From Eutreptiella sp. 'Long Island Sound 2002' (lineage: Eukaryota; Euglenozoa; Euglenophyceae; Eutreptiales; Eutreptiaceae): a stretch of 64,000 nt of DNA. Under the pieces are notes generated by a model. The model saw only the letters and a program-made list of their open reading frames with translations, was not told where the DNA came from and searched no databases. The position numbers and the translations under genes were made by a program. This document shows, piece by piece, positions 435 to 59,215 of this stretch (position 1 is the first letter of the stretch; each line of letters opens with the position of its first letter). Location of the stretch: NCBI GenBank assembly GCA_964036045.1, contig OZ038389.1, positions 65,545,453 to 65,609,452 on the forward strand, in the 5' to 3' direction.

Positions 435-874
435 TGAAGCGGTATGGGGTGCCTCACCCATACCCGCTGCCCAGCCTGTGGCGCTCTTCGCCCGGCTGGC
501 TCAGGAATTTTCCTGGGCTGATTACGGCATCTCGATTTCTGTGGGATTTCTGTAAAATACCCCAGAAATCGTCATTTTTCGTCATTTTTGGGCTGGCGAC
601 GACGTTCGTCGCCTGCGCGACGCAGCCCCAGATCGAAGTTTTATTTCTCGATTTCTGGGGATTTTAATCAATTTTATTATTGATTTATCGTTTTTAGAAA
701 TAAAGGAATATAACGTGACCTTTTTCGCGGCGTTCCGCGAAGGTCCATTTTTGCGAACTCAGTCACGTTCACGATTCTTTTAAAAAATCCTGAGGCGATC
801 CCAGGAATCACCCAGGCGCCCATGGTGTGGCCCAACAGTGGGCCTCTTCATACATAGTATGAATTGGGAGAGAG

Positions 875-901
875 ACGCGTCGTGTCGGCTACACGACGCG
901 T
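875..901 (+). repeat. Perfect 11-bp hairpin in family-3 LTR
   Basis: ACGCGTCGTGT (875-885), loop CGGCT, ACACGACGCGT (891-901). It recurs in every unit. Other strong inverted repeats in the same LTR are GGCGACGA/TCGTCGCC (594-612) and CGCGG/CCGCG nested in AACGTGAC/GTCACGTT (about 713-770). Confidence 0.85.
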
Positions 902-1202
902 TGGGGGGAGACACGCGAAATGAGTGTTTTTGGCTCAAAAATCACTATGTTTCACTGTTTTTCGCCCAAAAACCACTGTTTGGCCCAGTTTCGGCAGGAT
1001 CTCAGTGGAGATCCTGATGGCGACGACTCGTGGCCGTCAGATTTTCTGATGGCGGCGACGCCGCCGCCTTCATTTCGTCCTCTTTTTTATGCTATTTTCT
1101 AGTATAGAAGTGTTACATATACATATTACTTGTCTACATGTTTATATTGTCTACATATACCTTCATCTCTTTGCCCAGGACGCCAGATTGTGTCATGGCT
1201 GA

Positions 1203-1224
1203 GGCAAGGATCACAGAATTCTTT
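1203..1224 (+). promoter_or_regulatory. Putative transcript 5' end and self-primer of unit 1
   Basis: GGCAAGGAT (1203-1211), two bases, then CAGAATTCTTT (1214-1224). The last 11 nt are the exact reverse complement of the 11 nt just after the LTR (1323-1333). Elements D and E have GGCAAGGAT, two bases, then a different 11-mer matched to its own primer site. That spacing and covariation suggest the RNA starts at or near 1214 and folds back as primer, as in yeast Tf1. The start site itself is inferred. Confidence 0.6.
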
Positions 1225-1322
1225 GGAGAAACCCAAATTCGAGAGGAAGTCTTGGATTTCATGGGATTGGGGTCGTGCATGCCAAGGGAAGCTTGGAGGT
1301 TGCCCTCCCCCGAACCTCTTCA

Positions 1323-1333
1323 AAAGAATTCTG
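1323..1333 (+). promoter_or_regulatory. Self-complementary primer-binding site, unit 1
   Basis: AAAGAATTCTG lies immediately after the LTR end CTCTTCA. No TGG-type tRNA primer site follows the LTR. Equivalent sites are at 3085-3095, 4851-4861, 6613-6623 and 8373-8383. Confidence 0.6.
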
Positions 1334-1590
1334 CCGACGCCAAGGCCACCAAGGCGGTGTGACGGCCTGCGGACGGCGACGACGCCCAGACTGCAGGATT
1401 ACCGCTTCTTCGCTGGGAAACATCTGCAGGAGCTAAGGTCCAGGGCATCAACATGATGAAGGTGCCGATACACCTTGACTCCTACAAAGGGTATAACCTT
1501 GGCTTCCCCATGGACCCTATGGAGCCCCCAAGTCCATCATGTGGCTGGGCGACGACCACAGCGACGACGACGCCATCTGCGAACCGCACA

Positions 1591-1834
1591 AGCAGGCGCG
1601 TTAATTCGTCGCCTTGGGTTGGATGGCCCTCCGGAGGTCGCCACCCTAAATAGGCGCGGGTCGCCTTGGGTAGGAAATGACCCTAAATCCCCCAAATCAG
1701 GCGCGTTAATTCGTCGCCTTGGGTTGGGAATCGACCCTAAATAGGCACGAGGAATTCGTCGCCTTGGGCAGGAAATGGCCCTAAATTCAGGCGCGAGGAA
1801 TTCGTTGCCTTGGGTTTGACCCTAAATAATTTTT
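1591..1834 (+). repeat. Short tandem sub-repeats in family-3 interior
   Basis: Five imperfect copies of a 40-60-bp motif (GGCGCG, AATTCGTCGCCTTGGG, then CCCTAAAT) lie side by side. The block recurs in each full unit. Confidence 0.8.
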
Positions 1835-2185
1835 GAGAATTTATTGAATTATTATGTTTCCATGCCCATTAAGAAAAAGGGCCAATATGTGCGCCTCAGC
1901 GCTATCAGTCAGGTTGTAAGGACCTGCAGCACCCCTGGTTTGGTCACCAGAGGCTAAAGGGAGTGCCAGGGACCAGTATGGTCGCCTAGGGGGCAATTGC
2001 CCTATGAATAGATCAAGAAAAAAAAAGAAAGAAAAAAAAAGGACCTACATGGGAGTGGCATGTAGATTCCTCACGAAGCCCCCCCCCCCCCCCACTGTCC
2101 TGCTGAATCAGTGTGAAACCAGGGCAGTGCAGGGGTCAGAGCGCCTCCTTGGCCTTGCCTTCCTTTGGATATAGGCAAGGCTTCT

Positions 2186-2196
2186 AAGGAGGGGGG
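2186..2196 (+). promoter_or_regulatory. Polypurine tract of family-3 unit 1
   Basis: AAGGAGGGGGG immediately before the TG of the next LTR (2197): the plus-strand primer position. It is identical before units 3 to 6 and matches the tract of element D. Confidence 0.8.
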
Positions 2197-3958
2197 TGAA
2201 GCGGTATGGGGTGCCTCACCCATACCCGCTGCCCAGCCTGTGGCGCTCTTCGCCAGGCTGGCTCAGGAATTTTCCTGGGCTGATTACGGCATCTCGATTT
2301 CTGTGGGATTTCTGTAAAATACCCCAGAAATCGTCATTTTTCGTCATTTTTGGGCTGGCGACGACGTTCGTCGCCTGCGCGACGCAGCCCCAGATCGAAG
2401 TTTTATTTCTCGATTTCTGGGGATTTTAATCAATTTTATTATTGATTTATCGTTTTTAGAAATAAAGGAATATAACGTGACCTTTTTCGCGGCGTTCCGC
2501 GAAGGTCCATTTTTGCGAACTCAGTCACGTTCACGATTCTTTTAAAAAATCCTGAGGCGATCCCAGGAATCACCCAGGCGCCCATGGTGTGGCCCAACAG
2601 TGGGCCTCTTCATACATAGTATGAATTGGGAGAGAGACGCGTCGTGTCGGCTACACGACGCGTTGGGGGGAGACACGCGAAATGAGTGTTTTTGGCTCAA
2701 AAATCACTATGTTTCACTGTTTTTCGCCCAAAAACCACTGTTTGGCCCAGTTTCGGCAGGATCTCAGTGGAGATCCTGATGGCGACAACTGGTGGCCGTC
2801 AGATTTTCTGATGGCGGCGACGCCGCCGCCTCCATTTCGTCCTCTTTTTTATGCTATTTTCTAGTATAGAAGTGTTACATATACATATTACTTGTCTACA
2901 TGTTTATATTGTCTACATATACCTTCATCTCTTTGCCCAGGACGCCAGATTGTGTCATGGCTGAGGCAAGGATCACAGAATTCTTTGGAGAAACCCAAAT
3001 TCGAGAGGAAGTCTTGGATTTCATGGGATTGGGGTCGTGCATGCCAAGGGAAGCTTGGAGGTTGCCCTCCCCCGAACCTCTTCAAAAGAATTCTGCCGAC
3101 GCCAAGGCCACCAAGGCGGTGTGACGGCCTGCGGACGGCGACGACGCCCAGACTGCAGGATTACCGCTTCTTCGCTGGGAAACATCTGCAGGAGCTAAGG
3201 TCCAGGGCATCAACATGATGAAGGTGCCGATACACCTTGACTCCTACAAAGGGTATAACCTTGGCTTCCCCATGGACCCTATGGAGCCCCCAAGTCCATC
3301 ATGTGGCTGGGCGACGACCACAGCGACGACGACCCAATTGCGAACCGCACAAGCAGGCGCGTTAATTCGTCGCCTTGGGTTGGATGGCCCTCCGGAGGTC
3401 GCCACCCTAAATAGGCGCGGGTCGCCTTGGGTAGGAAATGACCCTAAATCCCCCAAATCAGGCGCGTTAATTCGTCGCCTTGGGTTGGGAATCGACCCTA
3501 AATAGGCACGAGGAATTCGTCGCCTTGGGCAGGAAATGGCCCTAAATTCAGGCGCGAGGAATTCGTTGCCTTGGGTTTGACCCTAAATAATTTTTGAGAA
3601 TTTATTGAATTATTATGTTTCCATGCCCATTAAGAAAAAGGGCCAATATGTGCGCCTCAGCGCTATCAGTCAGGTTGTAAGGACCTGCAGCACCCCTGGT
3701 TTGGTCACCAGAGGCTAAAGGGAGTGCCAGGGACCAGTATGGTCGCCTAGGGGGCAATTGCCCTATGAATAGATCAAGAAAAAAAAAGAAAGAAAAAAAA
3801 AGGACCTACATGGGAGTGGCATGTAGATTCCTCACGAAGCCCCCCCCCCCCCCCCACTGTCCTGCTGAATCAGTGTGAAACCAGGGCAGTGCAGGGGTCA
3901 GAGCGCCTCCTTGGCCTTGCCTTCCTTTGGATATAGGCAAGGCTTCTAAGGAGGGGGG
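2197..3958 (+). mobile_element. Family-3 unit 2
   Basis: LTR 2197-3084, interior 3085-3958. Primer pair perfect (2976-2986 with 3085-3095). Nearly the same as unit 1, with small differences such as CCCAATTGCG in place of CGCCATCTGCG near 3335. Confidence 0.8.
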
Positions 3959-5724
3959 TGAAGCGGTATGGGGTGCCTCACCCATACCCGCTGCCCAGCC
4001 TGTGGCGCTCTTCGCCAGGCTGGCTCAGGAATTTTCCTGGGCTGATTACGGCATCTCGATTTCTGTGGGATTTCTGTAAAATACCCCAGAAATCGTCATT
4101 TTTCGTCATTTTTGGGCTGGCGACGACGTTCGTCGCCTGCGCGACGCAGCCCCAGATCGAAGTTTTATTTCTCGATTTCTGGGGATTTTAATCAATTTTA
4201 TTATTGATTTATCGTTTTTAGAAATAAAGGAATATAACGTGACCTTTTTCGCGGCGTTCCGCGAAGGTCCATTTTTGCGAACTCAGTCACGTTCACGATT
4301 TTTTTAAAAAATCCTGAAGCGATCCCAGGAATCACCCAGGCGCCCATGGTATGGCCCAACAGTGGGCCTCTTCATACATAGTATGAGTTGGGAGAGAGAC
4401 GCGTCGTGTCGGCTACACGACGCGTTGGGGGGAGACACGCGAAATGAGTGTTTTTGGCTCAAAAATCACTATATTTCACTGTTTTTTGCCCAAAAACCAC
4501 TGTTTGGCCCAGTTTGGGCAGGATCTCAGTGGAGATCCTGATGGCGACAACTGGTGGCCGTCAGATTTTCTGATGGCGGCGACGCCGCCGCCTTCATTTC
4601 GTCCTCCTTTTTATGCTATTTTATAGTATAGAAGTGTTACATATACTGACATATTACTTGTCTACATGTTTATATTGTCTACATATACCTTCATCTCTTT
4701 GCCTAGGACGCCAGATTGTGTCATGGCTGAGGCAAGGATCACACAATTCTTTGGAGAAACCCAAATTCGAGAGGAAGTCTTGGATTTCATGGGATTGGGG
4801 TCGTGCATGCCAAGGGAAGCTTGGAGGTTGCCCTCCCCCCAACCTCTTCAAAAGAATTCTGCCGACGCCAAGGCCACCAAGGCGGTGTGACGGCCTGCGG
4901 ACGGCGACGACGCCCAGACTGCAGGATTACTGCTTCTTCGCTGGGAAACATCTGCAGGAGCTAAGGTCCAGGGCATCAACATGATGAAGGTGCCGATACA
5001 CCTTGACTCCTACAAAGGGTATAACCTTGGCTTCCCCATGGACCCTATGGAGCCCCCAAGTCCATCATGTGGCTTGGCGACGACCACAGCGACGACGACG
5101 CCATCTGCGAACCGCACAAGCAGGCGCGTTAATTCGTCGCCTTGGGTTGGTTGGCCCTCCGGAGGTCGCCACCCTAAATAGGCGCGGGTCGCCTTGGGTA
5201 GGAAATGACCCTAAATCCCCCAAATCAGGCGCGTTAATTCGTCGCCTTGGGTTGGGAATCGACCCTAAATGGGCATGAGGAATTCGTCGCCTTGGGCAGG
5301 AAATGGCCCTAAATTCAGGCACGAGGAACTCGTTGCCTTGGGTTTGACCCTAAATAATTTTTGAGAATTTATTGAATTATTATGTTTCCATGCCCATGGA
5401 GAAAAAGGGCCAATATGTGCGCCTCAGCGCTATCAGTCAGGTCGTAAGGACCTGCAGCACCCCTGGTTTGGTCACCAGAGGCTAAAGGGAGTGCCAGGGA
5501 CCAGTATGGTTGCCTAGGGGGCAATTGCCCTATGAATATATCAAGAAAAAAAAAGAAAGAAAAAAAAAGGACCTACATGGGAGTGGCATGTAGATTCCTC
5601 ACGAAGCCCCCCCCCCCCCCCACTGTCCTGCTGAATCAGTGTGAAACCAGGGCAGTGCAGGGGTCAGAGCGCCTCCTTGGCCTTGCCTTCCTTTGGATAT
5701 AGGCAAGGCTTCTAAGGAGGGGGG
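3959..5724 (+). mobile_element. Family-3 unit 3
   Basis: LTR 3959-4850 (892 bp; the extra 4 bp lie near 4645), interior 4851-5724. The LTR primer segment reads CACAATTCTTT, one mismatch to its own site AAAGAATTCTG. Confidence 0.8.
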
Positions 5725-7484
5725 TGAAGCGGTATGGGGTGCCTCACCCATACCCGCTGCCCAGCCTGTGGCGCTCTTCGCCAGGCTGGCTCAGGAATTT
5801 TCCTGGGCTGATTACGGCATCTCGATTTCTGTGGGATTTCTGTAAAATACCCCAGAAATCGTCATTTTTCGTCATTTTTGGGCTGGCGACGACGTTCGTC
5901 GCCTGCGCGACGCAGCCCCAGATCGAAGTTTTATTTCTCGATTTCTGGGGATTTTAATCAATTTTATTATTGATTTATCGTTTTTAGAAATACAGGAATA
6001 TAACGTGACCTTTTTCGCGGCGTTCCGCGAAGGTCCATTTTTGCGAACTCAGTCACGTTCACGATTTTTTTAGAAAATTCTGAAGCGATCCCAGGAATCA
6101 CCCAGGCGCCCATGGTATGGCCCAACAGTGGGCCTCTTCATACATAGTATGAATTGGGAGAGAGACGCGTCGTGTCGGCTACACGACGCGTTGGGGGGAG
6201 ACACGCGAAATGAGTGTTTTTGGCTCAAAAATCACTATATTTCACTGTTTTTTGCCCAAAAACCACTGTTTGGCCCAGTTTGGGCAGGATCTCAGTGGAG
6301 ATCCTGATGGCGACGACTCGTGGCCGTCAGATTTTCTGATGGCGGCGACGCCGCCGCCTTCATTTCGTCCTCTTTTTTATGCTATTTTCTAGTATAGAAG
6401 TGTTACATATACATATTACTTGTCTACATGTTTATATTGTCTACATATACCTTCATCTCTTTGCCTAGGACGCCAGATTGTGTCATGGCTGAGGCAAGGA
6501 TCACACAATTCTTTGGAGAAACCCAAATTCGAGAGGAAGTCTTGGATTTCATGGGATTGGGGTCGTGCATGCCAAGGGAAGCTTGGAGGTTGCCCTCCCC
6601 CCAACCTCTTCAAAAGAATTCTGCCGACGCCAAGGCCACCAAGGCGGTGTGACGGCCTGCGGACGGCGACGACGCCCAGACTGCAGGATTACTGCTTCTT
6701 CGCTGGGAAACATCTGCAGGAGCTAAGGTCCAGGGCATCAACATGATGAAGGTGCCGATACACCTTGACTCCTACAAAGGGTATAACCTTGGCTTCCCCA
6801 TGGACCCTATGGAGCCCCCAAGTCCATCATGTGGCTTGGCGACGACCACAGCGACGACGACGCCATCTGCGAACCGCACAAGCAGGCGCGTTAATTCGTC
6901 GCCTTGGGTTGGTTGGCCCTCCGGAGGTCGCCACCCTAAAAGGGCGCGGGTCGCCTTGGGTAGGAAATGACCCTAAATCCCCCAAATCAGGCGCGTTAAT
7001 TCGTCGCCTTGGGTTGGGAATCGACCCTAAATAGGCACGAGGAATTCGTCGCCTTGGGCAGGAAATGGCCCTGAATTCAGGCGCAAGGAATTCGTTGCCT
7101 TGGGTTTGACCCTAAATAATTTTTGAGAATTTATTGAATTATTATGTTTCCATGCCCATGGAGAAAAAGGGCCAATATGTGCGCCTCAGCGCTATCAGTC
7201 AGGTCGTAAGGACCTGCAGCACCCCCGGTTTGGTCACCAGAGGCTAAAGGGAGTGCCACGGACCAGTATGGTCGCCTAGGGGGCAATTGCCCTATGAATA
7301 TATCAAGAAAAAAAAAGAAGAAAAAAAAAGGACCTACATGGGAGTGGCATGTAGATTCCTCACGAAGCCCCCCCCCCCCCCACTGTCCTGCTGAATGAGT
7401 GTGAAACCAGGGCAGTGCAGGGGTCAGAGCGCCTCCTTGGCCTTGCCTTCCTTTGGATATAGGCAAGGCTTCTAAGGAGGGGGG
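5725..7484 (+). mobile_element. Family-3 unit 4
   Basis: LTR 5725-6612, interior 6613-7484. It carries the same one-base primer mismatch as unit 3 and shares variants with unit 5 (AAAGGGCGCGGG near 6938). Confidence 0.8.
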
Positions 7485-9244
7485 TGAAGCGGTATGGGGT
7501 GCCTCACCCATACCCGCTGCCCAGCCTGTGGCGCTCTTCGTCAGGCTGGCTCAGGAATTTTCCTGGGCTGATTACGGCATCTCGATTTCTGTGGGATTTC
7601 TGTAAAATACCCCAGAAATCGTCATTTTTCGTCATTTCTGGACTGGCGACGACGTTCGTCGCCTGCGCGACGCAGCCCCAGATCGAAGTTTTATTTCTCG
7701 ATTTCTGGGGATTTTCATCAATTTTATTATTGATTTATCGTTTTTAGAAATACAGGAATATAACGTGACCTTTTTCGCGGCGTTCCGCGAAGGTCCATTT
7801 TTGCGAACTCAGTCACGTTCACGATTCTTTTAAAAAATCCTGAGGCGATCCGAGGAATCACCCAGGCGCCCATGGTATGGCCCAACAGTGGGCCTCTTCA
7901 TACATAGTATGAGTTGGGAGAGAGACGCGTCGTGTCGGCTACACGACGCGTTGGGGGGAGACACGCGAAATGAGTGTTTTTGGCTCAAAAATCACTATAT
8001 TTCACTGTTTTTCGCCCAAAAACCACTGTTTGGCCCAGTTTGGGCAGGATCTCAGTGGAGATCCTGATGGCGACGACTGGTGGCCGTCAGATTTTCTGAT
8101 GGCGGCGACGCCGCCGCCTTCATTTCGTCCTCTTTTTTATGCTATTTTCTAGTATAGAAGTGTTACATATACATATTACTTGTCTACATGTTTATATTGT
8201 CTACATATACCTTCATCTCTTTGCCTAGGACGCCAGATTGTGTCATGGCTGAGGCAAGGATCACACAATTCTTTGGAGAAACCCAAATTCGAGAGGAAGT
8301 CTTGGATTTCATGGGATTGGGGTCGTGCATGCCAAGGGAAGCTTGGAGGTTGCCCTCCCCCCACCCTCTTCAAAAGAATTCTGCCGACGCCAAGGCCACC
8401 AAGGCGGTGTCACGGCCTGCGGACGGCGACGACGCCCAGACTGCAGGATTACTGCTTCTTCGCTGGGAAACATCTGCAGGAGCTAAGGTCCAGGGCATCA
8501 ACATGATGAAGGTGCCGATACACCTTGACTCCTACAAAGGGTATAACCTTGGCTTCCCCATGGACCCTATGGAGCCCCCAAGTCCATCATGTGGCTTGGC
8601 GACGACCACAGCGACGACGACGCCATCTGCGAACCGCACAAGCAGGCGCGTTAATTCGTCGCCTTGGGTTGGTTGGCCCTCCGGAGGTCGCCACCCTAAA
8701 AGGGCGCGGGTCGCCTTGGGTAGGAAATGACCCTAAATCCCCCAAATCAGGCGCGTTAATTCGTCGCCTTGGGTTGGGAATCGACCCTAAATAGGCACGA
8801 GGAATTCGTCGCCTTGGGCAGGAAATGGCCCTGAATTCAGGCGCAAGGAATTCGTTGCCTCGGGTTTGACCCTAAATAATTTTTGAGAATTTATTGAATT
8901 ATTATGTTTCCATGCCCATGGAGAAAAAGGGCCAATATGTGCGCCTCAGCGCTATCAGTCAGGTCGTAAGGACCTGCAGCACCCCCGGTTTGGTCACCAG
9001 AGGCTAAAGGGAGTGCCACGGACCAGTATGGTCGCCTAGGGGGCAATTGCCCTATGAATATATCAAGAAAAAAAAAGAAGAAAAAAAAAGGACCTACATG
9101 GGAGTGGCATGTAGATTCCTCACGAAGCCCCCCCCCCCCCCACTGTCCTGCTGAATGAGTGTGAAACCAGGGCAGTGCAGGGGTCAGAGCGCCTCCTTGG
9201 CCTTGCCTTCCTTTGGATATAGGCAAGGCTTCTAAGGAGGGGGG
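7485..9244 (+). mobile_element. Family-3 unit 5
   Basis: LTR 7485-8372, interior 8373-9244. It has the one-base primer mismatch. A TGA-to-TCA change near 8410 joins two chance frames into 180 codons, which I do not regard as a gene. Confidence 0.8.
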
Positions 9245-10130
9245 TGAAGCGGTATGGGGTGCCTCACCCATACCCGCTGCCCAGCCTGTGGCGCTCTTCG
9301 CCAGGCTGGCTCAGGAATTTTCCTGGGCTGATTACGGCATCTCGATTTCTGTGGGATTTCTGTAAAATACCCCAGAAATCGTCATTTTTCGTCATTTCTG
9401 GACTGGCGACGACGTTCGTCGCCTGCGCGACGCAGCCCCAGATCGAAGTTTTATTTCTCGATTTCTGGGGATTTTAATCAATTTTATTATTGATTTATCG
9501 TTTTTAGAAATACAGGAATATAACGTGACCTTTTTCGCGGCGTTCCGCGAAGGTCCATTTTTGCGAACTCAGTCACGTTCACGATTTTTTTAAAAAATCC
9601 TGAGGCGATCCGAGGAATCACCCAGGCGCCCATGGTATGGCCCAACAGTGGGCCTCTTCATACATAGTATGAGTTGGGAGAGAGACGCGTCGTGTCGGCT
9701 ACACGACGCGTTGGGGGGAGACACGCGAAATGAGTGTTTTTGGCTCAAAAATCACTATATTTCACTGTTTTTCGCCCAAAAACCACTGTTTGGCCCAGTT
9801 TGGGCAGGATCTCAGTGGAGATCCTGATGGCGACGACTGGTGGCCGTCAGATTTTCTGATGGCGGCGACGCCGCCGCCTTCATTTAGTCCTCTTTTTTAT
9901 GCTATCTTATAGTATAGAAGTGTTACATATACATATTACTTGTCTACATGTTTATATTGTCTACATATACCTTCATCTCTTTGCCTAGGACGCCAGATTG
10001 TGTCATGGCTGAGGCAAGGATCACAGAATTCTTTGGAGAAACCCAAATTCGAGAGGAAGTCTTGGATTTCATGGGACTGGGGTCCTGCATGCCAAGGGAA
10101 GCTTGGAGGTTGCCCTCCCCCCAACCTCTT
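9245..10130 (+). mobile_element. Family-3 unit 6: terminal LTR only
   Basis: The LTR matches the others up to CCTCTT (10130), then switches to the last 76 bp of a family-1 LTR. The expected terminal CA and a target duplication of the left flank (CAAT) are missing, so a few bases were lost at this junction. The primer segment is the perfect form (CAGAATTCTTT). Confidence 0.8.
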
Positions 10131-10206
10131 CTGATCAGGAGCAAGTCAGCAGGGGTGACAGGCGGAAGGGGCACAGCGGGGGCCGGTCCTGGTAGGGACC
10201 TTCTTT
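10131..10206 (+). mobile_element. Last 76 bp of family-1 LTR, resumed after array
   Basis: Aligns with 17149-17224, the 3' end of the element-B 5' LTR, ending CTTCTTTA directly before the primer-binding site. Confidence 0.85.
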
Positions 10207-14858: not shown

Positions 14859-17224
14859 TGAAGCCGGTTCGGACCCCCGTGGCCATCTTGGGGTCACTTG
14901 GGGTGTGTATTTATGTGCCGGCAAGCCGCCATTGGCTGATATCATACTCTCCCATCCACCTGACCTAACCCGATGTGATAGTGTGATAGGTTTGGCCATT
15001 CCGGCTATGAGCGGCCATATTCAGTACCGAGGCGCCGCCAGCGGAGATTTATAAATCAGAATATCAGGAATCAACAGGGTTTTTTTATCATAATGTTTCC
15101 GTAATTTTTCAGTCTTCCGTTCTGGTAGTCAATGTATCGGCGACTGTCAGTTGGCTCGCGATTTTGCGGTAACCGAATGGTTAACTTTTTTTTACAGATA
15201 TTTTGGCGGAAACCCCGATGAAGGGTCAGATTTCATCAGTAAAGGGTTCGTTGCTTCCGCAATTTTCATACTATACACTCGCAAAATTAATCCGATTTGT
15301 TCAGACTTTCAGAATCGGATTTTCCACTTCCACATCGCCGCACTCGATATGATGAATCTCGAGTGGTCATACAATTTTCCCCGATCACGAATCAGCCTTC
15401 CTTTTGTTGTGCCCTTCATTTTGCTTGGAGATATAGTCGAAACAAAAGGGATTCGTGAGACCACTTTGAAGAATCATATCTCCGGCTCACGGCGAGGAAT
15501 ATCAATATCGAGAAGTGGGTTGGAACCGCCTTAGTCTCAACTTAATTTAGGAAGCATCAAACGCCTTTGGTGTGTACACATGCCTGGTGTAGCAAGGGAG
15601 AACGGTCAAGAGGGTAGAAAGGGATATATAACTCTTGGACCGTGCAACCGAATATTTTAATGCGACTTTCGAGTGTACCGCATGAGTGTTGGGGATGCAT
15701 AGATTCTTTCCTTGGGTTCCTACGTATTTTTAACGTGAAGTTATGTCCATGGAGGGTCATAACATATCATGGTGGGAGCCATGTTTGAGGGTATGTGTTA
15801 TATGCATGGTATGTGCTTCGATATGCTCACGCCCATGTTATATATCTCCGTTTGTAGGATAATATAGGGAGTCATACGTGACAGGGGCTTCGCCCATGTC
15901 CCGATGGTGAACTCCATAGCGCTAGACTAAGTCTACCGCTCATATAGTGCATGTGGGAGGGCTTACGGAGCGACCCACAAGCGCCAATATCAATTTTTTC
16001 ATTTTCATGGTGCGTGTTGGGAGTAGGTTCGAAGGTGTCCTCATGCGTTCATATAGGGATCCAAGTGGGGGGATTGTTTGCAAATGGTCCCAAGCAATTG
16101 TGTTTTGAGTTATAGGTTGACATCATGGGTGAGCGAAGTTATATACTATTGTAATTATCTTGAATTTGGCAGTATTTGCATGTTTTTGACCTCAATTTAT
16201 GCTCATTTTTGTGTTTTATGTGCTCAACTGGTCAGCTAACAGTAAAGTGCCTAGAGATTTGTGAACTATGGTATGTTGCTTATATGTTGGCATATGCTTT
16301 GGTGTTGTACCTCACCATATGCCGGATCACGTGGTCACTTTGGCTTGGCACACGAGGCCTCACAAAATTAGGTCTCAAATTCATGAGTTGACTTGTGAAG
16401 CATGTCATGTACATAACCGGAGGGGGTTCGGAGCCAATGATGGGATATTCCTGGGCATGCATCTTGGGTCTATATCACCCTTGTATACTACTTTCCGGTT
16501 TGACATATGCATGGAGCATTGGGATATTTGCCGTATGCATTTTTGAGTATATAATTGAATATTGGGCACTATGGTGTGTTTTGCCTGATTTTGCCATGTT
16601 TTGAGGTCATCTTCATGGGGCAGTTCTCCAAGCCCATTCGACTCCCAGTCCAATCAAGGTTATGTCAGGGTAGGGCATGGTCCTGAGTGCCACTCTAGGC
16701 CATGACACGCCACCTCCCCCTTTGGGCTAGGATTTAGAAGCTTGGGAGTGAACACATTTTTGGGGTTTGTGTAGTGACTTATGACACATGGCATTCAGCC
16801 ATCTCATTTGACCTGGTTCAGGGCAATATGTTGGTGAGTCAAGGGAAGGTCTTGAGTCCAGGGAATGAGGGGTTTATGGCTGTGAATGTGTATGTTTACC
16901 TCTTTCCTCAACTTTGCTTTATTTGTGTTCATATGCCAATTTCAGGGCTTTTCTCTTTGGTGCAATTCTTGTACATGCCCGCCACCGTGAGACGACCGGT
17001 GTGCTGAATGGAAGCCCGCAGCCCGTATTGGATTGTAACTTGGGCTATTGCTGTATTTGTGGGATCTGGTTGCTGTTCAGGGTTGAAGGAGGATTTTATT
17101 TTCTATATTTTTGGATTTTGGACCCTGAAATTTGAGGAATGCAATCGTTGATCCGGAGTAAATCAGCAGGGGTAACAGGCGGAAGGGGCACAGCGGGGGC
17201 CGGTCCTGGTAGGGACCTTCTTTA
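14859..17224 (+). repeat. 5' LTR of element B
   Basis: Same length as the 3' LTR (2366 bp). Both boundaries are fixed by the target duplication, the polypurine tract and the adjoining primer site. It contains a U3 block shared with family 2 (15035-15640). No certain TATA box or polyadenylation signal. Confidence 0.93.
15035..15640 (+). other. Conserved U3 block with open frame (5' LTR of B)
   Basis: Homologous in DNA and in translation to the U3 of family 2 (44330-45034, - strand). Shared peptides include RISGINRV, FHFHIAALD against FDFDIPALD, and a C-terminal GQEGR. In B a TAA stands where family 2 has TAT, and further stops occur. It may be a decayed LTR-encoded protein or a conserved regulatory block. 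Confidence 0.45.
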
Positions 17225-17236
17225 TGGTAGCAGAGG
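17225..17236 (+). promoter_or_regulatory. tRNA-iMet-type primer-binding site of B
   Basis: TGGTAGCAGAGG with no spacer after the LTR: 12 nt complementary to an initiator tRNA-Met 3' end CCUCUGCUACCA. Confidence 0.8.
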
Positions 17237-17441
17237 CTTACCTGCTGCCCCTACCTACCGCCGACCCGGGGACTTGGGCCCTGAGCCCTGCCCAAGTACG
17301 CCCCGGGTGCGTATTGTGGACTCGGTGGAGACCACGCCGGAGATTGGAGCCAGAGAAGAGCCGAGACGCTCAAGAGCATGGCGAACTCCGGAAGTTGAAG
17401 CCCGAAGAGAAGTACGACATTCGGGAAGAGGAGGACTTGAC

Positions 17442-18224
17442 ATGGAGGACCTGGTCTCCATGTGCGAGCGTCGCTGCCGCAAGGCATGCAACCTCCGCTC
17501 CGCCGCAGAGGACTCCGACGAGGCCTGCCATTCAGGCAGCAGTGAAGGACGGGCCCGGTGCTACCGGAAGCGCGGGTCACCCAAGCCCGCGGCAGGGGAC
17601 GCCGGGGCTATGGATACGGACCCCAGCCCGGTCAGGCTGTGGGAATCCGAGCACTCCGAGGGACATCGGACAGCTTATGAGCAACCCTCGGAGTCGGAGG
17701 GGACGGCCAGACCGCCCACAAGGGCGAACACGGCCCCAGAACCCAGCCTGGAGCATGATGCCGAGGCGTTGGAGAGGCCCGCCAGAGACAGGACGGCGCC
17801 TGTGGCCCGGCACACGGAGCCAACGCGGGATAGCATGGGCGACACACCCATGGCGGAGGAGTCCGAGGCGCCGGGAACCGCGGGACGCGCCGGATCAGGT
17901 GGAAAGCACGCTGAGTGCCACTGCGAGCACGTGTCGTTCCTCATGGGCAAGTAACCAAAGATGGGGATGGACGCCATCGTGCATCGCCTAGACCGCCTGG
18001 ACAACGCAAAGGACGGTCTAGAGGAGGACGTCGCGGGGATTCTGGATGACCAGTCGGCTGCGGAGAGAGACATGTCGGAGCTGCGAGCGGAACAGGCCCA
18101 GTACCGGGAGAATCTGGAGCTGGCTCTGCAGAAGCAGCAGCGAGTGGTGGACAGCCTCCTCAACCTGGTGGAGGACATGTCGGGACGCCTGAGAAGGCTA
18201 GAGGAAATACAACCCTCTCGCGTC
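17442..18224 (+). pseudogene. gag: Gag N-terminal coiled-coil part of B (nonsense codon)
   Basis: Start at 17442 (MEDLVSMCERRCRKACNLR) because it is the only methionine in the conserved frame between the primer site and the coiled coil. An Arg/Pro/Glu-rich stretch is followed by CHCEHVSFLMGK and a coiled coil (about 17985-18200). TAA at 17952-17954 replaces the TAC of element C and breaks the frame. At the coiled-coil/capsid border the frame also changes by +1, so the capsid is read in another frame. Confidence 0.7.
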
Positions 18225-18264
18225 GGGTCCGGAGCTCCCGGCAAAGCCGGCCGCGGCAGAGCTG

Positions 18265-20244
18265 GTGGAGCGGGTTAAGACCCTCAGGAGCGCCGTGGAT
18301 AAACCCATGGGCGGCCCTGCAGAGGCACCCTACGCGCCTCCGCGTGTTGACCCGGGTGCGCTGCCATTTGTTCCCATGTTCAGCAAATCCACAATGCTCG
18401 GGGAACACACGGCACCGGCTGGGTCCATGCGGGAAGGGCACGTAACCACGGAGCCGAGGAGCCTGACGGTACAGATGTCCCACGCCGCCCAGGATCTACC
18501 GCCAACTACAAATACCCATGCAGTTTATGCGGAAGAGGAGATCCAGAGCCAGACCATGCAGGGGCGAACCATGGGAAGCGCCGACGGACATGGTCGAGGC
18601 CACCCAGGCGGCAATCTGTGGGCGAAGGACCCCACTACGGGGATATGGACGGCAGATGGAGCAAGTCCTTCCCGCATTCCAAACCCCATGGGTTCAGGCC
18701 CAACTGGACCGCACTCCATGGAGGGGAGGGATGTACGGGGAGTGTACTCACACCCCCCGGCCACAGGTGGTATCCGTCTCGGTGGAGTGGTGGCTGGGGA
18801 CGTCGGAGACGCCATCAGGATTGACGACCTCAGGGGAATCAAAATCCCCTACTATGATGGCAACCCCTCGAACCTGGACGACTTCATCCTGGATTGGGAG
18901 GACTTCGCCGAGGAGGTCGTCGGCGAGATGCGGGGAGCGCCGCGGGACAAGTGGGTACGTCGGACATTCCCACACCGGCTGGCGCAGGACCTGAAGGAGG
19001 AGCTGCGGGATCAGATCCGGGAAGGATTGATCCGTACGGAGCAGGCCTGCCTCCAGTGGTTGGAGGATGAGGAGCGGGTTGACGCTCCGAACCAGAAGCT
19101 GGAGGACTTGTGGTCCATCCCGCTGCAGCTGGACTGCGGTGAGCTGCAGGTCCAGGAGTGGGACCGGTACCTGCGGAAGTACCGACGGAGCCTGAAGCTG
19201 GTGGAGGACTGGAACGAGTCCAGCGAGATCCGCCACCTCCTGAAGGACGTTCTCCCCGGCCACTGGAAGAGGCGAGTGGAGGACGAGGAGAAGAAGCGCG
19301 CCAAGAAGCAGGTGGCGGTGAGGATCATGGCGGCGGAGGATACCCATGCTGGTATCATTGAGTTCTTCCGGAGGAACCTGGGCGAGCCCAACCGGATGTT
19401 GGGACTGAAGAACGCCGTTTACGTGGAGGTATTTGGAGACTCCATGGGGCAAAGGTTGCTGCGCCTCAACAACGTGGAGTGGAGGCGCGGGGAGCCGCTG
19501 AGGATGCAGGTCATCTTCGCCCGCATGAGCCTGGACGAGATCGTGAAGTACATCACGGTGGAGTTGAAGCTCAATGCGAAGAACGAGGCCCACGTGCAGG
19601 ATCGACATGGTCATGGACAACGAGGCCACCGAGAAGACCGCCATCATCGGGAGATCCAGGAGGACACGGCCAACTCCGCGGAGGATGGTAGTGGAAGTGG
19701 CCAAGACCACTGGTCCCGGGAGGATCACCAGGAGGCCCATTTCTTCGCGTTTGTGGCGCACAACGTGAGGAACCATGGGCAGGATCGGTCCAGATGGAGC
19801 CAGGTGGGACCCAAGAAGGGCAAAGAGCCAAGGAGGATCGGGAACCCACCGCTCTCGTTCCGAGAGTACAGATCTCAGCACAACGGGTGCTGGGTCTGTA
19901 ATGGCAAGGGAAACAACCATGCACACGACCACCGTCAGTGCAAGGTGTATGAGGCGGACAAGAAGGCCTACTTCGCCGCCCACCCCGAGAAGAAGCCCAA
20001 AGAGCAGCGGATTTCCGATTGGAAGGCGAAGGGCGGCGATGGGGGAAAAGGCCAAGGTAAAGGCCAAGGAAAAGGCGGAGGAAGAGGCTATGGTGGTGGA
20101 CCTGGCGAAGACCGACGAGTGAGGTCCATCGAGGAGGTTGCTGAGGACATGTTGAGGACGTTGGAGGAACTCAAAGCCCAGCAACGTGGTGGACAAAGTC
20201 CTGGCGGATCGCAGCCGGAAGGGGCTGCAGGAAGCCAAGTCTAG
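18265..20244 (+). CDS. gag: Gag capsid-nucleocapsid of B
   Basis: 659 codons, open throughout. The capsid core lies about residues 180-430 (YYDGNPSNLDDFILDWEDF near its start). A charged His/Asp-rich linker follows, then a zinc knuckle at residues 542-559 with spacing CX2CX8HX4C (CWVC...C), longer than the usual CX2CX4HX4C, and a Lys/Gly-rich RNA-binding tail (KGQGKGQGKGGGRG). It ends at TAG 20242-20244, after which pol continues in the same frame. The start at 18265 is the first ATG; the true N-terminus probably joins the coiled-coil part upstream. Confidence 0.85.
   Translation: MERVKTLRSAVDKPMGGPAEAPYAPPRVDPGALPFVPMFSKSTMLGEHTAPAGSMREGHVTTEPRSLTVQMSHAAQDLPPTTNTHAVYAEEEIQSQTMQGRTMGSADGHGRGHPGGNLWAKDPTTGIWTADGASPSRIPNPMGSGPTGPHSMEGRDVRGVYSHPPATGGIRLGGVVAGDVGDAIRIDDLRGIKIPYYDGNPSNLDDFILDWEDFAEEVVGEMRGAPRDKWVRRTFPHRLAQDLKEELRDQIREGLIRTEQACLQWLEDEERVDAPNQKLEDLWSIPLQLDCGELQVQEWDRYLRKYRRSLKLVEDWNESSEIRHLLKDVLPGHWKRRVEDEEKKRAKKQVAVRIMAAEDTHAGIIEFFRRNLGEPNRMLGLKNAVYVEVFGDSMGQRLLRLNNVEWRRGEPLRMQVIFARMSLDEIVKYITVELKLNAKNEAHVQDRHGHGQRGHREDRHHREIQEDTANSAEDGSGSGQDHWSREDHQEAHFFAFVAHNVRNHGQDRSRWSQVGPKKGKEPRRIGNPPLSFREYRSQHNGCWVCNGKGNNHAHDHRQCKVYEADKKAYFAAHPEKKPKEQRISDWKAKGGDGGKGQGKGQGKGGGRGYGGGPGEDRRVRSIEEVAEDMLRTLEELKAQQRGGQSPGGSQPEGAAGSQV
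20242..20244 (+). promoter_or_regulatory. Candidate gag-pol readthrough stop (UAG)
   Basis: GTC TAG AGG AGC CCC: after this single stop the same frame continues into protease (KKAPEEPKPLSFATPNPW). Element D has TAG CGG AGC CCC at the same place, 8 of 9 downstream bases alike. Confidence 0.55.
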
Positions 20245-20990
20245 AGGAGCCCCCACGGGAGTGGGACCTCGGAGGTCTCTCCTCCGAAAATCAGTGGAAT
20301 CCCAGAGAAAGCGAAGGCACATCGGGTGCCGAAGAAGGCTCCAGAAGAGCCAAAACCACTGAGTTTCGCCACTCCCAACCCCTGGAGCGCCCTGCCAAGG
20401 GAAGTTTATGTGGGCCAGGGACGTGGTAAGAAGGAAGGAGCGACCACGGAGAGCCCCGTGGACGGGCAAGACCAACCCAAGATCTGAACCATCCGTGATC
20501 ATACCCTCGAAGTCCTGATGCACCCGGACGTGCTAGAGTTGCATGCCGTGAGAGTCGTCCATACACCGCATGGTGACGAGCGGCAGTTGCACTTGAAGGT
20601 GCGTGTACAGTGCGGACAAGAGGAGTTGGTGGTGGATGTTCTGGTGGATACGAGTGCCCAGGTGAGCCTGGTCCGGAGAGGGTTGTTCAAGGAGGAATCC
20701 TCGCAGCCCAGCCGTAGACCGGTACGCCTGAAGGTGGCCAATGGAGAGATTGTGGGTTCTGGCACCCATGAGGCCACTATCACTATGGAATTCTGGGAAC
20801 ATGAGCGCTTGAACCGCCCTGATCTGGCGAAGAGAAGCACTCTATCCCGGAACTTCTATGTGGCCCACATTACAGATTGGGATATGATCATGGGGTATGA
20901 CTTCATGGTGGCAAATGCCATTGGAGCCCTTCCCCATCGTGCAACGCTGGTCCGGGAGGATGATGAATGCCTCACATGGCTGTCCACGGA
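20245..20990 (+). pseudogene. Aspartic protease of B (inactivated)
   Basis: Retropepsin that would process Gag-Pol. The catalytic motif reads VLVDTSAQVSLV (D at 20647-20649), where C and D have DTGA; the Gly-to-Ser change sits in the catalytic triplet. The second conserved stretch is DWDMIMGYDF (about 20878-20907). A TGA at 20485-20487 replaces the TAC of element C between the Gag readthrough stop and the protease core. Long downstream frames resume at 20518. Confidence 0.8.
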
Positions 20991-21102
20991 CTATGCATGC
21001 GGATCATCCCAATGGAATGCGGAGGAAGAGGATCGGATCGTCCGAGTGGTGCAAGCTGTGGGTGCCAAGTCCAGAGGAGACCGTGGAGTTCAGCTCACGG
21101 AG

Positions 21103-21426
21103 TATGGAATGGCGCCGCAGGTGTATGCCAGGATGATTCAGACGCTGGGAGCTGAAGCGCCCGAGACGGACGTCTTCGCTTCCCGGGATGCCCCACTTCT
21201 GCGGAAGTGCAGGAGGCATTCGCATCGAGGAGACTCAGCCTGGCACAGGCATTGGGGTTTGAAGGAGTGGGGGCCCATGTATTGGCATGGCTCCCTGGAC
21301 AATACCAGACGTACGGTGGAGAAGATCGTCGCGGATAGGGCGAAGGGGATCCTGTCATAGCCGGCATACGATCCACCCCATGTCCGCTGGAAGATCTCAA
21401 GTCTACGCTGGACTCCATCACCCTGA
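21103..21426 (+). pseudogene. Methylase-like linker domain of B
   Basis: About 110 residues between protease and RT: TDVFASRDAPLL, then DSAWHRHWGL, MYWHGSLDN, and VEKIVADRAKGIL. The order (D-x-F-A-S, W, an aromatic-plus-turn segment, then V-x-K-I-x2-D-R-x-K and a hydrophobic strand) resembles the Dam-like domain of DIRS elements, but the catalytic NPPY/DPPY is absent. A one-base deletion near 21353 against element C shifts the frame, giving a TAG at 21358; the reading resumes in the frame open at 21432-22421. Confidence 0.5.
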
Positions 21427-22127
21427 ACGAGATGTCATTCGGGCCAGAGGAGGAGTTGTTCATCGACGCCAAGGGTGTATCAATGCCCTCCCCGGGTCAA
21501 GCGTGGGGCACCAAGGCTCTCCTGGTGGATGGGGCGCAGGCCCAGCCCACGGGTGATGAAGCATTCATCCGTAGGGTGGAGGCGGTGCCCATGAAGGTCA
21601 TGTTTGAGCCCAAGGAGGGGACGGATCAGCCAATTGATGGCATTGACGTCCTGTCCCACGCCGAGATCGATGACGTCGTCAACTACATGCGGATGGGGAT
21701 GCACGACCGTGTGGCAGCCAAGAAGAGGCGGGCCATGGTCAAATCTCCGCATTGGTGGGATGACAAGATGTTGGTCACCGGCAAGTACGAGAAGGATGAG
21801 TTCGTGGCGAGGGTCATGGATCACATCGCGGACCAATACGATGGTCCGGTTGGGTCGGACCCCCCAACGTGGGGTTTTCCAAGATTGGGAACCGGTAGCG
21901 ACAAGAACCAGCCCGAGGCCGCAAATTTTCGAAGATTATCGGTGGGAATCGCGACCCACGACGATGAAGACGGCATATCGGACGAGGAGAAGTCGGACTC
22001 GGACCCAGAAGAGGCCTATACCGCAGTGCGGTCGGTTGTATCGATACCGAAGCAAGCGGCTGAGGAGGCCCAGGAGAACCCGAAGGTCGCCGAGCTGAAG
22101 GAGAGGCTGATCAAGGCCTATCCGCGG

Positions 22128-23090
22128 CTATTCAGTGGCGTCGCCAACAAGAACCCTCCAGATCGTGGGAGGTTTGGTACAGCGAAGATCAAGCTGAAGC
22201 CGAACCCGAAGATCTATCGTCATCGGGAGTACCAACTTCAGGGCGATCGGGCCGAGGCCATGAAGAAGCTGTTGGCCGAGTTCATTGAGCGGGGACGGAT
22301 CGAACCCTCCGACAGTGAGTGGGCCAGCCCAGCCTTCATCGTGCCCAAGAAGGAGAAGGGCGAGTGGAGGTTAGTGGTGGATTACAGGGGTTTGAACGAG
22401 CAAACCGAGCACGACTCGTAGTCGCTTCTCCTGATCCACTCGATCCTCCAAAGACAACAGAAAAAGCGGATTTTCACGGTGTTAGACCTGAAACACGGCT
22501 ATCACCAGATGCCGCTAAACCCGGACTCCAGGCCCTGCGCAGCGATGTCGACGCCGCTGGGGCCCATGCAGTGGAAAGTGGTGCCTATGGGTGCCAAGAA
22601 TGGCAACGCCGCTTTCAAGCGCATGATGGAGGACCTACTCAGTCCTGTCCAGGACTGTGCCGATCCCTTCGTGGATGACATCATCATCGTGTCCGGCACG
22701 GAGAACATGACTGAGGACGAGCTCATCGACGCGCATGAGAAGGATCTGCGCCGAGTGCTCAGCGAGTTGGACAAGCACAACATGGTGTGCAAGCCCACCA
22801 AAGCCTCACTCTTCGTGAAGGAAGTGGAGTTCGCGGGTCACGTGGTTGGTCATGGGCAACGCCGTCCCATGCCTGGGAAGCTGGCGTCCCTGCACCACTG
22901 GGAGAAGCCCCAGACCATCAGCGAACTCCGGTCCTTCATGGGGTTCTGTAATTACTATTCGGGCTATGTCAGGATGTATGCAGAACTCTCGGGGCCGCTG
23001 CACAAGATGCTGCAGGTGGGGAAGTTCGATGGCCGGAAGGGGAGCAAGAAGAAGCTTGCCTGGACCCCTGAGGCTGAGGATGCGTTCAAC
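22128..23090 (+). pseudogene. Reverse transcriptase of B (nonsense codon)
   Basis: RT core from KLKPNPKIYRHREY (about 22190) through WRLVVDYRGLN, DLKHGYHQMPL and the catalytic FVDDI (Asp codons 22674-22679) to the thumb region FAGHVVGHGQRRPMPGKL and YYSGYVRMY. Domain order and motifs are those of Ty3/gypsy. TAG at 22419-22421 replaces the TAC of element C, splitting the domain before the catalytic aspartates. Confidence 0.88.
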
Positions 23091-25302
23091 CGCCTGAAGG
23101 AGCGACTCCTGGGGCAGTTGGGGCTGTTCCTGGTGGACCCGGACAAGGGATTCGTGCTACGGACAGACGCCTCGGACTATGCCGTGGGGGCAGTCCTCGA
23201 GCAAGTCCGGGACGACGGGTCCCGTGGCGTTTTGGAGCAGGATCCTGGCCGAGGGCCAACGCCGCACATGGACCGCGAGGGAGAAGGAGACATACGCCAT
23301 TGTATGTGCGCTCAGGAAGTGGTCTGGCCACATCGGACTGCAGCCGGTGGTGGTTTGCACGGACCACCAGTCCCTACAGAGCTGGCACAAGGAGCATGTC
23401 GACACCCCCTCAGGACCAGCGGCTAGGAGGGCCCGATGGCACGAGACGTTCACCAAGTTCGACCTCAGCGTCGTGTACGTCCCAGGGAAGGACAACACTG
23501 TGGCAGATTGCCTCAGTCGCTGGGCCTACCCCGCGGGCAAGGCGTGGATGGACATATCCAGCCATGGTGACGCTGAGGAGACCGAGGAGGCCAAGCGCAT
23601 CATCGAGATGGAGAAGGCCATGGAGCAAGAGGGGGTCAAGTGCTTTGTGGTGATGGCAAACCGTACGGACCTGGCCAAGTTCCGGGGTGCCCGCGTCCAA
23701 GCTATTCGAGAGGAAATCCTCGAGCAATGGATCGTGGCCCCTGTAGAGCTAGTCAGGTCGGTGCTCACAGAGGACTGGTCGGATGACTACGCGGCATCCG
23801 AGCACTGGAGCAAGTACTGGAATGCCGTGAGCGCCCCGTCGGACGACGATTGGCCTGAGGACTTGACCGAGGATAGGGACAAACTGTTCCTCAAGGACAA
23901 GCTACTGGTCCCTGAGAACCGAGTGGAGGAGCTCATTGACCACTGGCACAACGCCCAGCTCATGCATCCTGGCCGAGACAAGATGCAGCAGGACCTGGAG
24001 TGGCGCTTCAAGTTCCCACCGGGGTACTACGCCATCCTGGACAAGTACTGCAGCGACTGCGCCGTGTGTCGGGCCACAAAGAGCCCCAACCACTCCACAG
24101 CGGGCAACCCGGTGTACACGGCTATACCGGAGGCCCCTATGCGGTCCGTGGCCATGGATGTGTTCGCCATGCCGGAGGTCACCGTGGAAGGAGAGACATA
24201 TGATTGTGTCATCCTAGCGGTGGACAGGCACAGCGGGTATATCGTGGCAGTCCCGGGCAAGAAGTCCAAGAAGAAGGACAAGAAGGACAAGCATGGAGTG
24301 GGTCTGCAGGCCAAGACTGTCGCGAATGACATGATCAGGCATTGGCTGACGATTTTTGATGTCCCAGCTGTCATCTGCAGCGATCGGGGCAGTCAATTTG
24401 TGGGGACATGGTTCAAGACAATGTGCAAGCACATGGGGATTCAGCACGCCAAGACCGTGGCGTACCACAGCCCGTCGAATGGCTGGGCTGAGGTGGCCGG
24501 GCGGCAGATGTTCGAGAAGTTCCGCCAGCTGCACATTGACGAACCGGGCCGTAATTGGTACAATTCGCTGTGGAGAGTACTCCAAGCGTATCACGACCTT
24601 CCGGGACCCACTGGACTGTCGCCCGATCGTATCCTGTTCCTACGGGATCGAGTGTCACGCACTCTCCCGTGGTTGAACCATGGTAAAGTGGCCCGGGATG
24701 CGAACGATATGATGGCGGAGGCAGACGACACGGCGGCCAAGGTGTGCAAGGCACTTCAGGACGAGCATGACAAGAGGGCCAAGTACTTCAAGCAGGGAAA
24801 GGTCCAGAAGTATGCTCTCCAAGACACCGTGTGGGTGGAGCGGCATCACAAGGATGTCCTGTCCAGGCATCGGCAGGCATCTTGGTATGTGCCGGGGGTA
24901 ATCGTGCGGAAGGTCGGGCAGGATGTGTATGCGGTTCGTGTGGGGGATAACAAGATCCTCGACCGCGACCATACCCAGCTTCGTCCCCGAGCACCAGACC
25001 CCAGGGGACGTCCCCTCACCTTCGAGTTCACAGCCGGCGATGTGGACTCGGACGACGAGGGTGAGGACGACGACTTCACCGCTGAGAAGATCCTGGCGGA
25101 CAAGCCAAACCCGGGGACGCCTGGGGGGAGGCTTTATAAAGTCCGTTGGAAGGGATTCGCCGCATCCAGGGATTCGTGGGAGCCTCCGAGCAGTTTCGTG
25201 CCGAGGTATACCACGGTCTGGATGGACTATCTGAAGAAAAAGAATATTTCTTTGGATGTCAAGGACGTGTTGGTCCATTTGGTTGCTGCCGTAGCACCGT
25301 AA
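23091..25302 (+). pseudogene. RNase H, integrase and chromodomain of B
   Basis: RNase H starts at VLRTDASDYAVGAVLEQ; an 8-bp deletion near 23217 against element C shifts the frame, and the rest is open to 25302. The order is: RNase H remainder (TDHQSLQSW, DNTVADCLSRW); integrase His/Cys region (HWHNAQLMHPG, CSDCAVC); catalytic D (24157), D (24382), E (24490) with 35 residues between the last two; then a chromodomain at about 25063-25250 (YKVRWKGFAASRDSWEP). The integrase and chromodomain look intact. The chromodomain would direct integration to marked chromatin. Confidence 0.9.
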
Positions 25303-25687
25303 TGGATCCCCCTTGGCATTTTTGTTTGTTCCTGTGCTTGGGAGACGGCTGAGGGAGTTGATCCGGGGATTTTTGGGCCTTGATTGGCCATCTACCCCCT
25401 TCACTCGATCTCCACATATATATTTCGTTGTGGTATACTTATTTAGGTCGACCGACGACGTTTCTCTATCTTTGATCCCCTTGGTCGGTGTTGTAGATCA
25501 AGAGGAGACCGGATATGGGGTAGGGCACCGATTATCAGTGTCCTCACCCCTCCCTTGGGGCGTGGTGGACGCCTACAACGTGCGTGGGGCCTCCATGTGT
25601 CCTTGGGACTCGGGGGGGGGGGGGGTTGGAGCCCATTGGGGTCCTCCCGTCCTCTCTTCAATGACTTCTGAGCGGTAAAAACGCTCT
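25303..25687 (+). other. 3' untranslated region of B
   Basis: Non-coding. It holds a run of 14 G (25612-25625) about 65 bp before the polypurine tract. Families 2 and 3 have a C or G run at a comparable place. Confidence 0.7.
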
Positions 25688-25698
25688 GAGAAGGGGGG
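25688..25698 (+). promoter_or_regulatory. Polypurine tract of B
   Basis: GAGAAGGGGGG directly before the TG of the 3' LTR; plus-strand primer. Confidence 0.85.
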
Positions 25699-37500: not shown

Positions 37501-38214
37501 CGTCGCCTGCGCGACGCAGCCCCAGATCGAAGTTTTATTTCTCGATTTCTGGGGATTTTAATCAATTTTATTATTGATTTATCGTTTTTAGAAATACAGG
37601 AATATAACGTGACCTTTTTCGCGGCGTTCCGCGAAGGTCCATTTTTGCGAACTCAGTCACGTTCACGATTTTTTTAAAAAATCCTGAGGCGATCCGAGGA
37701 ATCACCCAGGCGCCCATGGTATGGCCCAACAGTGGGCCTCTTCATACATAGTATGAGTTGGGAGAGAGACGCGTCGTGTCGGCTACACGACGCGTTGGGG
37801 GGAGACACGCGAAATGAGTGTTTTTGGCTCAAAAATCACTATATTTCACTGTTTTTCGCCCAAAAACCACTGTTTGGCCCAGTTTGGGCAGGATCTCAGT
37901 GGAGATCCTGATGGCGACGACTGGTGGCCGTCAGATTTTCTGATGGCGGCGACGCCGCCGCCTTCATTTAGTCCTCTTTTTTATGCTATCTTATAGTATA
38001 GAAGTGTTACATATACATATTACTTGTCTACATGTTTATATTGTCTACATATACCTTCATCTCTTTGCCTAGGACGCCAGATTGTGTCATGGCTGAGGCA
38101 AGGATCACAGAATTCTTTGGAGAAACCCAAATTCGAGAGGAAGTCTTGGATTTCATGGGACTGGGGTCCTGCATGCCAAGGGAAGCTTGGAGGTTGCCCT
38201 CCCCCCAACCTCTT
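28519..38214 (+). repeat. Tandem array of family-3 elements, copy 2
   Basis: Units start at 28519, 30281, 32043, 33809, 35569 and 37329 (last is LTR only). LTR ends at 29406, 31168, 32934, 34696 and 36456. Every unit has the variants of its partner in copy 1, including the primer mismatch in units 3 to 5. Confidence 0.9.
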
Positions 38215-59194: not shown

Positions 59195-59215
59195 GGGGTT
59201 CTGGGTACCGCTTCA

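Follow-up and report, generated by a model that had tools for sequence, protein, structure and literature searches.

In the fission yeast retrotransposon Tf1, reverse transcription is primed by the first 11 bases of the element's own RNA, which fold back onto a complementary site, are released by RNase H and are then extended (PMC7175516). The Tf1 leader is described as requiring two further duplexes besides the one between primer and site (PMC10085805). Self-priming is treated as established in Tf1 and as implicated in the Tf1/sushi group, in Tcn1 elements of mosses and clubmosses and in the TAR lineage (PMC6317226, PMC4600332, PMC10085805). A plant survey states that the other plant chromovirus groups do not self-prime (PMC6317226), and an earlier paper reports no evidence of self-priming in a Tcn1 element of Selaginella (PMC2864245). 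For most elements self-priming has been inferred from complementarity within a single element; at the locus described below, natural variants serve as a mutation-and-compensation test.

We analysed a 64,000-nt stretch of DNA, referred to as the window, in which two families of LTR elements (F2 and F3) carry, immediately behind the LTR, a site complementary to 11 bases of that same LTR. Judged from sequence comparison and predicted folds, both families very probably start reverse transcription from their own RNA in the manner of Tf1.

Organisation of the window and its element families

The repeat map resolves the window into a stack of nested LTR retrotransposons. A family A copy (14859-28064) sits within the LTR of a second A copy, and the same LTR also houses an F3 array (28519-38215) and an F2 element (42110-59215) and is entered by another F2-type LTR from about position 62095 on. 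Positions 1-12856 and 28085-40940 are 100% identical over 12,856 bases, after which the left copy runs into a 200-N gap (12857-13056); one of these copies probably arose as a duplicate during assembly. No tRNA gene was found within the 64-kb window. The features discussed in this work are as follows.

435..1322, plus strand: first F3 LTR of the array (888 nt, TG...CA)
1195..1362, plus strand: open frame spanning the F3 primer and site (55 codons plus stop)
1203..1211, plus strand: GGCAAGGAT motif, two bases ahead of the F3 primer 11-mer
1214..1224, plus strand: F3 candidate self-primer 11-mer, CAGAATTCTTT
1323..1333, plus strand: F3 candidate primer binding site, AAAGAATTCTG, immediately behind the LTR
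1323..2196, plus strand: internal region of F3 unit 1 (874 nt), with terminal polypurine tract AAGGAGGGGGG
435..10131, plus strand: head-to-tail F3 array of six LTRs and five internal regions
28519..38215, plus strand: second F3 array, identical to the first and likely an assembly duplicate
14859..28064, plus strand: family A element, 4-bp target duplication ACTC
14859..17224, plus strand: family A 5' LTR (2366 nt), from a relative without self-complement
17225..17236, plus strand: family A primer binding site, TGGTAGCAGAGG, of the tRNA type (TGG), directly after the LTR
42110..59215, minus strand: F2 element, a chromodomain Ty3/gypsy element, 4-bp target duplication ATCC
56271..59215 (59215-56271), minus strand: F2 5' LTR (2945 nt, TG...CA)
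56395..56403, minus strand: GGCAAGGAT in the F2 5' LTR
56382..56392, minus strand: F2 candidate self-primer 11-mer, TGAAACGCTTT
56260..56270, minus strand: F2 candidate primer binding site, AAAGCGTTTCA, immediately behind the 5' LTR
50838..51497, minus strand: F2 open frame that matches aspartic protease weakly (under the Pfam cut-off)
48729..50837, minus strand: F2 reverse transcriptase open frame
46526..48784, minus strand: F2 open frame for RNase H, integrase and chromodomain
42110..45055, minus strand: F2 3' LTR (2946 nt)
42221..42231, minus strand: TGAAACGCTTT again, in the F2 3' LTR
62210..62220, minus strand: TGAAACGCTTT in the LTR of a second F2-type element, whose matching site falls beyond the window

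The two LTRs of the F2 element are 97.9% identical, and the LTR of the second F2-type element shows 89% identity over 731 aligned nt. A chromodomain follows the F2 integrase (PF00385, 3.9e-9), and the best solved-structure match of both the reverse transcriptase frame and the RNase H-integrase frame is Ty3. Between protease and reverse transcriptase, positions 50301-50552 (minus strand) bear a sub-threshold likeness to Dam adenine methyltransferases (PF05869; E 0.007; score 16.5 bits, cut-off 28.1), which also appears in two of the six database proteins tried (P0001 and P0002).

Family A is a close relative of F2. It gives reverse transcriptase, RNase H, integrase and chromodomain matches, the last just above its cut-off (PF00385, 1.5e-5), and shares with F2 61% identity over 208 residues of reverse transcriptase and 52% over 701 residues of the RNase H-integrase-chromodomain region. 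The LTRs of A (14859-17224) and F2 (56271-59215) have a homologous U3 block (71% over 757 nt). Their LTR ends and primer sites differ, as if an R-U5-site module had been exchanged.

F3 has two LTRs, a candidate primer site and a polypurine tract, with no recognised coding domain, and thus fits a non-autonomous LTR retrotransposon. Frames starting inside the internal region of unit 1 reach at most 96 aa; a 190-aa frame of unit 5 runs across the LTR end. No Pfam match was obtained with the translation of the unit 5 frame from its ATG or with two database relatives of F3. No target duplication flanks the array at 435-10131, and relative to the empty site three bases are absent. Around the LTR end (1195-1362) the sequence is open in three forward frames, one of which, MAEARITEFFG..., recurs in many database records, where it is predicted as a short protein; this frame is probably not a gene.

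The F2 and F3 LTRs show no other alignable part by blastn at E 0.001, but the polypurine tract and LTR start are identical between the two families over 24 nt (13 nt with family A). Because of this shared stretch, F3 is most likely moved by F2-type enzymes. Since the 11-mers of the two families differ, such an enzyme would have to recognise structure. Relatives were found neither in viral contigs, searched with the reverse transcriptase, a reverse transcriptase alignment and two DNA patterns, nor in prokaryote contigs, searched with the integrase frame and one pattern; records of the genome to which the window belongs were possibly excluded from these searches.

Complementarity and covariation of primer and site

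The earlier note on this DNA had proposed self-priming from an exact reverse complementarity, in each family, between an 11-mer of the LTR and the bases right behind that LTR. The pairing and its coordinates are confirmed for F3, where CAGAATTCTTT (1214-1224) matches AAAGAATTCTG (1323-1333), and for F2, where TGAAACGCTTT (56392-56382) matches AAAGCGTTTCA (56270-56260). The gap between LTR end and site is zero in both, and in both exact complementarity ends at 11. The LTRs end in CA directly before the site (...CGTCA/AAAGCG in F2, ...CTTCA/AAAGAA in F3), and AAAGCG and AAAGAA stand where a tRNA-type site would begin with TGG, again as first described. From the start of the 11-mer to the end of the LTR the distance is 122 nt in F2 and 109 nt in F3, in keeping with the proposed figure of about 100-120 nt. 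The 11-mers lie two bases past GGCAAGGAT, a spacing that holds at all 15 occurrences of this motif in the window (0.5 expected), which belong to 12 F3 LTRs and three F2-type LTRs. The primers of F2 and F3 differ at five of 11 positions, and all five differences are compensated in the sites.

Chance was rejected as the source of this complementarity. When the last 300 nt of the LTR were subjected to dinucleotide shuffling, a complement of the site arose in 8 of 20,000 F3 shuffles and in 0 of 20,000 for F2, the F3 match being easier to obtain by chance because of a palindrome, AGAATTCT, within its 11-mer. Inverted repeats of this kind are frequent across the window: they occur at 18 of 43,052 positions, whereas 20 shuffles gave 2.0 on average. 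Only two of the 18 fall at an LTR/internal junction. A mature tRNA 3' end is excluded as the primer of F2 and F3, whose sites lack the initial TGG.

The earlier note had also described a sister family with a tRNA-type site, and this holds for family A, in which TGGTAGCAGAGG directly follows the LTR. The matching tRNA would presumably be that of initiator Met. No complement to any 7- to 12-mer at the first four post-LTR offsets was found in the family A LTR.

Further family members were sought in protein databases, where the frame across the F3 junction served as a proxy for reading primer and site: the primer (aCA GAA TTC TTT) corresponds to the residues T E F F and the site (cAA AAG AAT TCT Gcc) to Q K N S A. 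In a search with a 96-residue translation of unit 5, 116 of 120 candidates had E <=0.001, all of them ENA records, and 41 proteins from this search carry both sites in frame. The covariation predicted for such copies is present. Primer N is accompanied by site F in seven of seven proteins, and site F occurs in none of the other 34, in which the middle residue of the site is N (31 proteins) or T, K or I (one each). In terms of codons inferred from the residues, a change from TTC to AAY in the primer needs one from AAT to TTY in the site, that is, two compensatory bases per side, and the resulting N/F primer is free of the palindrome. Three primer/site versions match themselves: those of F2, of F3 and, as read through protein residues, of an ENF/KFS subfamily of F3.

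Thirty of the 41 proteins can pair at all 11 positions, including five of the seven N/F proteins; of the exceptions, P0209 retains a G-U pair and P0159 is one pair short. The summed minimal mismatch over the 41 proteins is 12, whereas 2000 re-pairings gave 34.0 on average and never less than 20. Mismatch counts from the database are lower bounds here and below, because synonymous codons were picked to favour pairing. Over both searches, and for the second among the matches listed, 50 of 135 proteins show both sites. Complete pairing is possible in 35 of them; 13 are short of one pair, with a G-U retained in two of the 13, and two are short of two pairs. The N/F label requires at least four changes on a poorly resolved tree of 39 U5 residue columns, but with so few columns and with related copies the tree is too short to count such events, and the change may be a single inherited one.

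Not every copy pairs perfectly. In the F3 array, LTRs 1, 2 and 6 carry the canonical primer and LTRs 3-5 carry CACAATTCTTT, while all five sites are AAAGAATTCTG, leaving the pairing off by one base in three of the five units. Independent variation of the two 11-mers had been named in the earlier note as evidence against its proposal; such variation occurs in these three units and in 15 of the 50 proteins, and the remaining copies still match. We read the unpaired copies as having decayed after insertion. The six LTRs of the array vary at 38 of 896 alignment columns (the last four of which lie beyond the LTR end), so one change in 11 primer positions is about what post-insertion drift would produce; tandem arrays, furthermore, would grow through recombination and not through reverse transcription. 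The 12 F3 LTRs of the window are also not independent of one another, because F3 forms one tandem array and positions 1-12856 duplicate 28085-40940. The covariation claimed at the outset is borne out, though rewriting of the site from the primer in each cycle fits it better than two independent mutations do.

Proposed mechanism, predicted leader folds and alternatives

We propose that the RNA begins at or near the LTR 11-mer (position 1214 in F3, 56392 in F2) and folds back across the intervening 98-111 nt, allowing the 11-mer to pair with the site. By analogy with Tf1, the RNase H of the element would cut after base 11, and reverse transcriptase would extend the new 3' end, the first DNA letters copied being the end of the LTR itself. 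The plus strand would in turn copy the primer, and the site would be rewritten in every cycle. Under such a scheme primer and site stay matched while their sequence is free to drift. Self-priming, as first suggested for this locus, is favoured because it is the only reading we found that explains sites complementary to their own LTR and abutting its end in two families, together with the N/F change in the relatives.

In the predicted folds of both leaders the primer-site helix is present, with pair probabilities of 0.6-1.0 in F2 and 0.25-1.0 in F3, where the low values sit at the inner end of the helix. The 120- and 133-nt leaders give z-scores of -3.15 and -4.12, with none of 200 shuffles as stable in either case; longer leaders including flanks give -1.89 and -2.26, and the unit 3 leader, with its mismatch, gives -1.35 (20 of 200 shuffles as stable). 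These stability values involve some circularity, since the fold includes the very helix being tested. Of the Tf1 'pretzel', the central duplex forms in the predicted F2 and F3 leaders; for the two further duplexes, a crude test in both families gave strengths no higher than those obtained with shuffled loops.

The position of the RNA start bears on a variant within self-priming, and its odds form part of the confidence placed in self-priming as a whole. Here the primer would be internal: the RNA would begin further upstream, around TACATAT or the pyrimidine tract that precedes GGCAAGGAT, with the 11-mer either freed by two cuts or retaining a 5' tail. We regard this variant as possible but somewhat doubtful. 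TACATAT lies 62 nt ahead of the primer in both families (1152-1158, plus strand, in F3; 56448-56454, minus strand, in F2) and is possibly a promoter element at a fixed distance. The usual TATA spacing would place the RNA start about 30 nt upstream of the primer. Moreover, GGCAAGGAT stands directly upstream of the 11-mer in 12 of 12 F3 and three of three F2-type LTRs, and its GGC and GG form further pairs beyond the site in the predicted folds of both families. Against this, the role of GGCAAGGAT may be that of a core promoter element fixing the RNA start, a 5' tail copied into plus-strand DNA would be expected to interfere with second strand transfer, and the Tf1 primer is described as the very first 11 bases of the RNA (PMC7175516).

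Self-priming in either form has to be weighed against the idea that the 11-mers pair for packaging, dimerisation or translation control and that the real primer is something else. The abundance of other inverted repeats in the window would suit such a role, as would the palindrome within the F3 11-mer, and the RNA start is itself inferred. We nevertheless consider this explanation improbable, given that the site abuts the LTR end without a gap, exactly where a primer must bind, that neither F2 nor F3 has a TGG site, and that the length of 11 and the position are those of Tf1.

It is more improbable still that a host tRNA fragment or other small RNA acts as primer and that the copy in the LTR is incidental. 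Half-tRNA priming is described in Ty1/copia lineages (PMC6317226), but two families and a subfamily of F3 each match their own LTR and not one host RNA, and a half-tRNA primer is judged unlikely for the same reason. Finally, the notion that F2 alone is self-primed and that the F3 match is a coincidence of its palindrome hardly deserves credence: AGAATTCT is self-complementary and a few F3 shuffles do match, but the ENF/KFS relatives imply a palindrome-free primer with a site that still matches, and the spacing after GGCAAGGAT is the same as in F2.

Comparison with known elements

A literature search on self-priming, Chara LTR elements and methyltransferase domains, in which few subscription journals were covered, showed no report of the elements described here among the entries listed. 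On the sequence alone they are best read as new self-priming elements whose mechanism is already known from Tf1/sushi and Tcn1. The less usual parts are the non-coding passenger F3 and the tRNA-type relative A. The rule that emerges, with the site copied from the primer, would explain how such elements escape dependence on host tRNA. It would also account, in annotation, for LTR elements that tools report without a primer site. Furthermore, a genome that holds tRNA-primed and self-primed relatives side by side allows the switch between them to be studied. We tentatively suggest that priming switched between tRNA and self within a single chromovirus lineage, that self-primed primers drift, and that F2 enzymes serve F3 because the reverse transcriptase reads the fold and not the letters. 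Should this be true, and should the lineage fall outside Tf1/sushi, chromoviruses would have acquired self-priming an additional time.

Among non-autonomous LTR elements and TRIMs, F3 is alike in its LTRs, primer site, polypurine tract and lack of a recognised coding domain. Typical TRIMs are smaller than F3. F3 also differs from them in its self-complementary site, and a paper on bivalve TRIMs offers, in the part cited, no clear priming mechanism (PMC6934838). The Skipper elements of Dictyostelium are chromoviruses, most of them without TGG; unlike that of F2 and F3, their left LTR is described as lacking a complementary region (PMC5006619). The TAR lineage (Houba, Osr-1) is likewise predicted to self-prime, but it belongs to Ty1/copia and not to Ty3/gypsy (PMC6317226). 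Tcn1 elements of fungi, mosses and clubmosses are chromodomain Ty3/gypsy elements like F2, and most plant Tcn1 elements are predicted to be self-priming (PMC6317226); in contrast to that survey, a close relative of F2 is present here, family A (reverse transcriptase 61% identical), that has a TGG site.

The closest parallel is with Tf1/Tf2, Tj1 and the other fission yeast elements of the Tf1/sushi group, in which, as in F2 and F3, the complement of an 11-nt primer abuts a CA-ended LTR (PMC7175516, PMC10085805, PMC4600332). As these sources describe them, Tf1/sushi elements share with F2 a chromodomain integrase and with both families the lack of a tRNA site. Compared with Tf1, the second and third leader duplexes were not detected in F2 and F3, the LTRs are 0.9 kb (F3) and 2.9 kb (F2) long, and F3 is non-coding.
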